A stretch of DNA of 39,498 nt. It comes from Pelagibacteraceae bacterium AG-333-C14 (lineage in GTDB: Bacteria; Pseudomonadota; Alphaproteobacteria; Pelagibacterales; AG-422-B15). The stretch spans positions 1 through 39,498 of the forward strand of contig QBZD01000009.1 of assembly GCA_003282485.1 (NCBI GenBank). Direction: 5' to 3'. Below, piece by piece: positions 33,313-35,305 of the stretch; the first letter of the stretch is position 1, and each line of letters opens with the position of its first letter. The position numbers and the translations under genes were made by a program. The notes beneath the pieces were generated by a model. That model had not been told where the DNA came from. It saw only the letters and a list, made by a program, of their open reading frames with translations, and searched no databases.

Positions 33313-34626
33313 TTAAGCTGCATCTAATGCATTTTTTAAGTCTTCAATGATATCATCGATGTGCTCTATGCCTATGGATAATCTCACATAACTAGGGGTA
33401 ACACCTGCTGACTCCATTTCCTCATCAGATAGCTGCGAGTGGGTAGTCGATGCAGGATGAATAGCTAGACTTCTCGCATCTCCTATATTTGCTACATGAT
33501 AAAACATATTTAAATTATTAATAAATTTTTCACCACTAGCCTTGCCTCCTTTAAGTTCAATACCACAAAGTGCACCATGGCCCCCTTTTAGATATTTGTT
33601 TGCTCTTTCACCTGCTTCACCTTCGTCAAGCCCAGCGTAAATAACTCTAGAGACCTTATTGTGACTTGAGAGGTACTCAGCAACCTTAGCAGCATTAGAG
33701 CAGTGTTTTTCCATTCTCAGTGAAACCGTTTCGAGGCCTTGTATGATATTAAAGGCACTTTGAGGACTCAAAGCTGCACCTATATCTCTTAAGCCAACAA
33801 ATCTTGCTCTAACTATATAGGCAATTGGGCCCACAGCTTTTGCAAATTCTGTCCAAACCATTCCATGATAACTCGGATCCGGATCATTTAGATTAGGTTG
33901 TCTTTTAGGATCTTTTCCCCAATCAAACTTACCACTATCAACAATAATACCTCCAATCGTCGTACCATGCCCGCCGATAAATTTAGTTAATGAGTGAACA
34001 ACAATTGTAGCTCCGTGTTCTATTGGCTTACATATTACTGGTGCCGCAGTGTTATCAACGATCAATGGTATATTATATTCGTCTCCTATATCTGCAACTT
34101 CACGAATTGGAAATACCTTTAACTTTGGATTTGGAAGAGTCTCAGCATAGTATGCCCTAGTATTATCATCCGTTAATTTTCTAAAACTCTCGGGATCTTT
34201 TGGATCAGCAAACCTAACTTCAATTCCAAGATCTTTCATTGTATTAGCAAATAAATTCCACGTACCTCCGTATAAATCAGTGGAACTAACAATATTATCA
34301 CCAGCTTTCACCAAGTTTTGAATACTTAGCATAGAAGCAGATTGTCCTGAACTCACACAAAGAGCGCCAACACCACCTTCCATTGCAGCAACTCTTTTTT
34401 CAAGAACATCTACAGTTGGGTTCATAATTCTTGTATAAATATTTCCAAAGTCTTTGGCGCCAAATAAGTTGGCCGCATGCTCAGTATTATGAAATTGATA
34501 TGAAGTTGTTTGATATATGGGCACCGCTACAGATGTTGTGGATGGATCACTTCTGTAGTCACCGCCATGTAAAGCTATAGTCTCAGGATTTACTGAGTCA
34601 GCTGGTACAAATTTGTTTTTAGCCAT
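33313..34626 (-). CDS. metY: O-acetylhomoserine sulfhydrylase / aminocarboxypropyltransferase
   Basis: MetY makes homocysteine (or methionine with methanethiol) from O-acetylhomoserine. The 437-residue PLP enzyme of the Cys/Met metabolism family has ALHGGDYRSDPSTTSVAVPI, the YTRIMNPT motif, SSGQSA, and PLP Lys215 in HSLTKFIGGHGTTIGG. Its length and the insertion around residues 235-260 (KDPKRQPNLNDPDPSYHG) fit MetY and not MetB/MetZ. The ATG has a good ribosome-binding site (AGGGGAA in the sense strand, complement of 34637-34643). A long structured leader precedes it. Confidence 0.94.
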   Translation of the reverse strand: MAKNKFVPADSVNPETIALHGGDYRSDPSTTSVAVPIYQTTSYQFHNTEHAANLFGAKDFGNIYTRIMNPTVDVLEKRVAAMEGGVGALCVSSGQSASMLSIQNLVKAGDNIVSSTDLYGGTWNLFANTMKDLGIEVRFADPKDPESFRKLTDDNTRAYYAETLPNPKLKVFPIREVADIGDEYNIPLIVDNTAAPVICKPIEHGATIVVHSLTKFIGGHGTTIGGIIVDSGKFDWGKDPKRQPNLNDPDPSYHGMVWTEFAKAVGPIAYIVRARFVGLRDIGAALSPQSAFNIIQGLETVSLRMEKHCSNAAKVAEYLSSHNKVSRVIYAGLDEGEAGERANKYLKGGHGALCGIELKGGKASGEKFINNLNMFYHVANIGDARSLAIHPASTTHSQLSDEEMESAGVTPSYVRLSIGIEHIDDIIEDLKNALDAA

Positions 34627-34666
34627 TTCTTTATTATTCCCCTATTAATTTTTTTGATCGACAATA

Positions 34667-34694
34667 GTTGCTGTAAAAGCTTACAAACTGCAAC
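34667..34694 (-). promoter_or_regulatory. Hairpin in the metY leader flanked by 7-bp direct repeats
   Basis: GTTGC-TGTAA (34667-34676) pairs with TTACA (34681-34685) and GCAAC (34690-34694); the loop is AAGC and AACT forms a bulge. Direct repeats ATCGACA flank it at 34657-34663 and 34698-34704. It lies 41-68 nt upstream of the metY ATG. Role unknown; a cis-regulatory leader element is possible. Confidence 0.5.
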
Positions 34695-34749
34695 CATATC
34701 GACATAAAATTTAATACCGGTTTAAAGATTATGTAAACTTATATATAAA

Positions 34750-34761
34750 GTACTATAGTAC
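34750..34761. promoter_or_regulatory. 12-bp perfect palindrome overlapping a candidate metY -10 box
   Basis: GTACTATAGTAC is a perfect palindrome in the metY/rplM gap. On the minus strand TACTAT within it lies 18 bp from TTGAAT, giving a possible metY promoter with a leader of about 115-120 nt. Binding of a dimeric regulator here would block it. The inverted repeat GTTTA-N9-TAAAC at 34720-34738 is a second nearby candidate. Confidence 0.4.
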
Positions 34762-34803
34762 CATTCGTTAAAATATTGATTCAATTGATGAAATATATAA
34801 AGA

Positions 34804-34832
34804 TTGACAAATAAACAAGTTATTATTATTAA
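34804..34832 (+). promoter_or_regulatory. Strong rplM-rpsI promoter, predicted near-leaderless
   Basis: A perfect -35 TTGACA (34804-34809), 17-bp spacer and TATTAA (34827-34832) precede rplM. The spacer end and -10 contain TTA repeats as in the ihfA promoter. Exactly 8 nt separate the -10 box from ATG 34841, and no Shine-Dalgarno sequence is present. Confidence 0.6.
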
Positions 34833-34840
34833 CATCGCAT

Positions 34841-35305
34841 ATGACTACATCAAAAATATTAAAACAAACAAAGTCTCTAGCTAAGGAAAATATTAGAAAA
34901 AATTGGATGATTGTTGACGCCGAAAACATTGTCTTAGGTAGACTGGCATCTGCAGTATCTAAAATCTTAAGAGGTAAACATAAGCCAACCTATACGCCTC
35001 ATGCTGATTGTGGAGATAACGTTGTAATAGTTAATGCTGAAAAAGTTAAACTAACAGGAAATAAGCTTGAAGATAAAGTCTATTATCGTCATACAGGCTA
35101 TCCAGGAGGTATTAAATCTATTACCGCAAAAAAAGTTCTCGAGGGAAAGAACCCTGACAAACTAGTACGACTTGCAGTTAAAAGAATGATACCCTCAGGT
35201 CCTTTAGGTCGTAAACAGTTATCAAATATGAAGGTTTATGTTGGAAGCAATCATCCACATGAAGCTCAAAATCCTAAAGCATTAAATATAAAAGAGTTAA
35301 TATAG
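34841..35305 (+). CDS. rplM: 50S ribosomal protein L13
   Basis: L13 is an early-assembly protein of the large subunit. The 154-residue product contains [45 protein letters not shown] and [13 protein letters not shown], all standard. It leads the rplM-rpsI operon, with rpsI beginning 2 bases after its stop. Confidence 0.97.

Follow-up and report, generated by a model that had tools for sequence, protein, structure and literature searches.

The long gap upstream of metY raises the question of whether the RNA leader of this gene still senses SAM, as the original prediction of a divergent or new SAM riboswitch suggested, or has taken on a different role. The window (the whole stretch of 39,498 nucleotides analyzed here) corresponds to contig C9 of the SAR11 genome G000, which is 84.5% complete, and the relatives named below are Pelagibacteraceae or Pelagibacterales genomes obtained from single cells and metagenomes. 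The metY gene (33313–34626, minus strand), which is of the O-acetylhomoserine sulfhydrylase type and was named on the basis of similarity and gene order, diverges from rplM (34841–35305, plus strand). The gap between the two genes (34627–34840) is 214 bp long and, as first noted, is the longest stretch of the window devoid of open reading frames of at least 60 amino acids, the second longest (134 bp) containing a tRNA. If transcription starts just below a -10-like TACTAT box, the leader would be about 124 nucleotides long; the putative leader RNA placed on the basis of this box occupies positions 34627–34748 (minus strand). The box lies within a palindrome, GGTACTATAGTACT (34749–34762, minus strand). 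A palindrome of the form GGTAYNATNRTACY, with a -10-like TAYNAT, occupies the rplM–metY gap throughout the family, including where the riboswitch has been lost, and could act as an operator for the metY promoter. In G006, the palindrome at this site is longer (ATATAAGGTACTATAGTACCTTATAT). A regulon defined by the palindrome was considered and rejected: in the seven loci inspected, the second site lies within a gene (groES in six, another gene in one), and is thus attributable to coding sequence or chance.

An Rfam search of the whole window returned a tRNA as its sole match. The search of the leader with SAM-II and SAM-V models proposed along with the original prediction was equally unproductive: even at a permissive threshold (E 10), the metY leader matched no SAM model, including RF00521 (SAM-II), the two matches obtained being to unrelated families and at chance level (E 5.3 and 6.4). 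SAM-V (RF01826) had no match in the window or in the G000 genome, and no terminator was found in the window's metY leader. The segment TTTAAACCGGTATT (34726–34713, minus strand), initially likened to a SAM-II core, is present in the sequence, but lies upstream of the aptamer remnant described below (34704–34666). The lack of model matches, contact bases and a terminator led to the rejection of a functional SAM-II or SAM-V in the window. Kinship with SAM-II by descent is the part of the prediction that stands; the leader behaved as a working SAM-II or SAM-V in none of the tests run.

The evidence for this kinship comes from relatives, 32 of which, gathered through MetY similarity, had their metY leaders aligned with that of the window. 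In most leaders from the window's family (f1) outside the window's own clade, the corresponding site reads GUCGA(G)UUU...GCUUGCGGAC...ACAGCUAAGC, after which come CCGC...GCGG and a run of T. When the core was searched for as a strict pattern, 26 of the 297 genomes of the order matched, all belonging to f1 (19/43 in the window's genus, 5/5 in g2, 0/3 in g3 and 2/2 in g4, with 0/244 in f2, which by coordinates is the P. ubique family). The metY leader of f2 reads GCCGAUUUG.UCCUAUUGCGGGC...GCUAAAAAGGA, with a SAM-V directly after it. A column-by-column alignment of f1 and f2 metY elements (A3, 31 distinct rows) has 15 invariant positions. In its P1 helix (3 bp), C-G in 16 rows is replaced by U-A in 15, a double change that may reflect a single event, because it separates f1 from f2, and P2 (UUGC/GC[U]AA) is invariant, including its bulged U. 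The intact f1 element, thus, has P1, P2 with the bulged U and a U-rich strand, and a terminator pattern follows in 27 of 28 intact leaders, the 28th having an interrupted T run.

These intact elements share with SAM-II (RF00521, SAM_alpha) the pseudoknot plan (P1, a GAUUUG-like third strand and UUGC/GC[U]AA), the terminator and the position before metY, but the f1 form is shorter, falls under the Rfam cut-off and is short of one A that contacts the ligand; from the window form, the bulged U, third strand and terminator are missing as well. RF00521 found the f1 metY element of G091 (13.1 bits, below the Rfam gathering score of 36 bits) and the f2 metY element of G162 (16.0 bits) in the right place, and it gave 15.5 bits to the bhmT SAM-II of a genome corresponding by coordinates to the model strain HTCC1062 (the HTCC1062-like genome); scores this low are meaningful by position only, since 14 of 14 control genomes had matches at E 10. 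For that bhmT SAM-II, a KD of 1.2 µM is given in PMC5069961. SAM-II and SAM-V share an H-type pseudoknot plan, as described in PMC6061858, and the SAM-V reported at Pelagibacter metY in the same account has the gene, the rplM/metY gap and the fold class in common with the element considered here (PMC6061858). However, SAM-V is absent from 43 of 43 genomes of the window's genus, and its f1 occurrences are limited to G006 and G098, where it precedes a BhmT-like gene.

In a tree built from 47 rows of MetY DNA, 42 of them from f1, the intact element is present in 28 f1 rows, which fall in g2, g4 and a sister clade within the window's genus. It is absent from the nine-row clade of the window (support 100/99), from L026 and L031 and from both g3 rows; one f1 row, L219, was left unjudged because its leader is too short. 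The grouping of L026 and L031 with the window clade is weakly supported (83/71). By this tree, the intact form is ancestral. The window leader occupies the homologous position, and alignment with the intact elements of relatives places a SAM-II-type aptamer remnant at 34666–34704 (minus strand), comprising remnants of P1 GUC (34703–34701), the third strand (34700–34695), the P2 5' strand (34688–34683), the P1 3' strand (34682–34679) and the former GCUAA region (34671–34666). Members of the clade have lost the bulged U, the U-rich third strand and the terminator, and some have also lost P1. In the window, the model alignment gives GC--AA for the intact GCUAA, without the bulged U, the third strand reads GAUAUG, with no UUU, and P1 is broken (GUC versus AGC); P1 is GUC/GAC in four of the nine rows (L004, L006, L028 and L081) and GUC/GGC in L002.

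Intermediate stages of this decay were sought with R1, a covariance model built from the 31 intact elements. R1 scores 41–67 bits on six intact rows, all part of its training set, and is no general detector of SAM-II, a canonical metX SAM-II scoring 12.2 bits. It matched the leaders of L006, L028 and L081 (18.7 bits each) and L004 (17.9 bits), with E values of about 0.004–0.007 in 134.5 kb, and the same search gave no leader match in L002, L003, L005, L032 or the window. Run over the whole window, R1 found nothing in the metY leader; with filters off, it gave 4.2 bits, no better than at other spots of the 301 bases searched. As this score is not above chance, the descent of the window leader is argued from its position, its clade-mates and the alignment.

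Pairing has, nevertheless, been kept, in a different form. Folding, a nine-row alignment and covariation all point to a rod-like hairpin (34628–34728, minus strand) with the helices UCUUUA/UAAAGA, UAUUAA/UUAAUA, UUUU/AAAA, UG/CA, UCGAUA/UGUCGA and UGGUUGC/GCAACUA, the core of which pairs 34704–34690 with 34671–34655. The minus strand from 34762 to 34627 has a predicted folding energy of -28.9 kcal/mol, versus -18.8 ± 2.9 for shuffled sequences (z -3.48), with none of 200 shuffles as stable. The bulged 10-bp hairpin first seen at 34667–34694 is, thus, borne out by folding, but its real extent is greater (34728–34628). The ATCGACA direct repeats reported around it are present (34657–34663 and 34698–34704), and the inverted repeat placed at 34720–34738 can be read as GTTTA/TAAAC, but, with five bases on each side, is too short to mean much alone. 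Alignment A1 contains the leaders of the nine window-clade members (the window, L002, L003, L004, L005, L006, L028, L032 and L081), all nine of which, folded individually, give the same rod outline. The window's rod is paired in 92.0% of the 338 cells of A1, with four pairs changed on both sides; its covariation score was reached by none of 500 shuffles, versions slid along the alignment pair in 33–59% of cells, and RNAalifold independently yields a nearly identical structure. This support is good rather than overwhelming, because the nine rows are close kin and more than half of the long-helix pairs (15 of 27) are invariant and, hence, uninformative. Covariation among metY leaders, proposed as a check together with the model search, is, thus, present in these nine close relatives, yet the model match is absent.

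The rod encloses the ribosome-binding site in nine of nine rows, with the Shine-Dalgarno sequence AGGGGA (34638–34643, minus strand) lying in an internal loop. No alternative fold that could act as an expression platform was supported for the window leader, despite this location. Simple sequestration of AGGGGA was rejected, because the CC/GG pair that it would involve is complete in only three of nine rows; the motif is predicted to be 0.51–0.75 unpaired across the clade. Taken together, these observations indicate that the metY leader of the window is probably what is left of a SAM-II riboswitch that decayed and became fixed as a SAM-insensitive hairpin enclosing the ribosome-binding site.

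A plausible route to this state can be proposed. In the ancestor, the ligand would stabilize the pseudoknot and hide UGCGG, allowing the terminator to form; without ligand, UGCGG would pair with the CCGC of the terminator and metY would be read. The complementarity of UGCGG in the aptamer to CCGC in the terminator suggests, from sequence, that pseudoknot and antiterminator are mutually exclusive, and by analogy such switching in intact leaders would accord with the usual transcriptional logic of SAM-II. Leaders of the sister clade offer a further pairing: beyond the terminator lies a segment that can base-pair with the aptamer's 5' half (CGAGUUU..ACAGC with GCUGU.AAACUCG). This opposing helix is paired in 97.6% of cells over 18 distinct rows (slid versions, 23–44%), but its covariation does not reach significance (84 of 500 shuffles), as the rows vary little; pairing of the aptamer 5' half is less convincing in g2 and f2. 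A compensating insertion in this helix in L020 was considered and discarded, as L015 carries the extra A without an extra U. The 3' strand of the window's hairpin core (34655–34671, minus strand) may descend from the post-terminator segment of the sister clade, and loss of the intervening part in the window clade would have joined the aptamer-opposing helix into the present core. The rod has been kept through selection on pairing. Since it surrounds the ribosome-binding site, it most likely sets a constant level of metY translation or protects the mRNA, without SAM sensing; the simplest interpretation of the predicted fold is a steady influence on translation or on mRNA lifetime.

The old riboswitch could, alternatively, have given rise to a new hairpin-type translational regulator, acting as a thermometer or binding a protein or ligand. 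The compensatory changes that keep the rod and its enclosure of the ribosome-binding site in every row are compatible with such a role, which we nonetheless regard as unlikely: the apical loop varies freely among the rows of the clade, so that no conserved unpaired core is visible for a ligand or protein, and a thermometer was rejected because the predicted openness of AGGGGA in the window is constant from 5 to 37°C (0.50–0.51). Conservation might also operate at the DNA level, through the divergent rplM and metY promoters and the palindrome, with no role for the RNA fold. Pairwise identity averages 0.86 over the leader, 0.66 over the four-fold sites of metY and 0.87 over the upstream portion of the gap (a value pulled down by L003, the contig of which starts there); the whole gap is, thus, conserved, the leader no more so than the promoter part, and the palindrome is found across the family. 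However, changes in the leader preserve RNA pairs, G-U included, and the fold is more stable than shuffled sequences, making an explanation at the DNA level alone highly improbable. The original proposal, a divergent SAM-II or SAM-V still sensing SAM and controlling metY, is very improbable, even though the leader descends from a SAM-II-type element, P1 can still form in the four GUC/GAC rows, a P2-like AGUU(U)GU/GCAACU pairing is conceivable in the window and metY leaders are classical SAM-II sites in the account of PMC4239095, because no Rfam SAM model matches at E 10, R1 gives just 4.2 bits, the U of GCUAA, the UUU strand, P1 and the terminator are lost or broken, and the strand required for P2 is taken up by the hairpin core.

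The decayed riboswitch that we favor for the window leaves the ligand of its intact relatives to be considered. The mapping of positions between SAM-V and SAM-II used for this purpose is our own. We take A47 to be the SAM-II adenosine in contact with the amino-acid end of SAM, corresponding to A50 in SAM-V. In SAM-V, U47 pairs with the adenine of SAM and its alteration abolishes binding, whereas A50 touches the amino-acid end and its replacement with inosine severely reduces binding; SAM binding by the metX SAM-II is described in the same source as very similar to that by SAM-V (PMC6061858). The equivalent of U47 is missing from the window and its clade-mates. That of A50 is missing from every f1 metY element seen, these elements reading GC[U]AAGC in 15 of 15 distinct rows; the pattern used for f1 rows itself required AAG, but the leaders were obtained through MetY and inspected in the alignment. 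The A50 equivalent is present in 16 f2 rows and in the other SAM-II copies inspected. Two f2 genomes are of note here: metY of G157 also has GCUAAGC, and that of G001 reads GCUAAAGC. GC[U]AAGC elements were observed before metY at L007–L025, L027, L029, L082–L086, L106, L107 and L237. If the mapping is right, the usual mode of SAM binding by the intact f1 element is doubtful. We can, therefore, tentatively envisage an f1 element with a SAM-II fold, lacking the A contact with the amino-acid end and tuned to another ligand or another pose of SAM, the ligand-free helix of which became a stand-alone hairpin regulator of metY translation in the window clade, although the odds are against this scenario.

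The window's genome retains SAM-II elsewhere. G000 has a SAM-II above the Rfam cut-off (37.8 bits; C1:193416–193492, L179), with a terminator, before a MetX-like open reading frame. A SAM-II pattern search, the reversed control of which gave no matches in the 137 genomes searched, found the element in eight of the nine window-clade genomes, with one identical matched sequence, and not in G067 (75% complete). The loss is, thus, particular to metY. In f2, a SAM-II-like aptamer lies directly 5' of SAM-V at metY, with no terminator between them, and R1 matches a further element of this kind, again directly before SAM-V, at a gene resembling mmuM in both G003 and the HTCC1062-like genome. Such f2 tandems at metY and mmuM-like genes were observed at L235, L236, L109–L127 and L218. 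In the window's family, a BhmT-like gene of G098 and G006 is preceded by SAM-V and, upstream of that, by a SAM-II with a terminator (L161 and L162). G006 also carries two metY genes (L085 and L219), 78% and 75% identical to that of the window, one of the leaders being cut by the contig end.

The passages of PMC5069961 and PMC2704228 dealing with P. ubique SAM-II name it at bhmT and metX only, SAM-II/SAM-V tandems are described in PMC9481103 with a terminator after SAM-II, and the treatment of the bhmT tandem in PMC11508383 makes no mention of metY in the part concerned. Like the P. ubique bhmT tandem, the f2 metY and mmuM loci have a SAM-II-like aptamer directly before SAM-V, but a short linker only takes the place of the terminator between the aptamers, and the window, unlike any of these, has neither aptamer intact. 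SAM-II-like elements or tandems at SAR11 metY or mmuM were not found described in the literature covered, to which the original SAM-V paper (Poiata 2009) does not belong. Compact SAM-II-like aptamers at SAR11 metY and mmuM, including those of the HTCC1062-like genome, thus escape the Rfam threshold, and the GC[U]AAGC elements of f1 point to an aptamer subclass with its ligand in question. In the window's family, these loci line up by degree of decay, on a single gene within a single synteny block: riboswitches that are intact, forms that have partly decayed and, finally, a plain hairpin. A SAM-II that remains intact at another locus of the window's genome serves as a control for the decay at metY.
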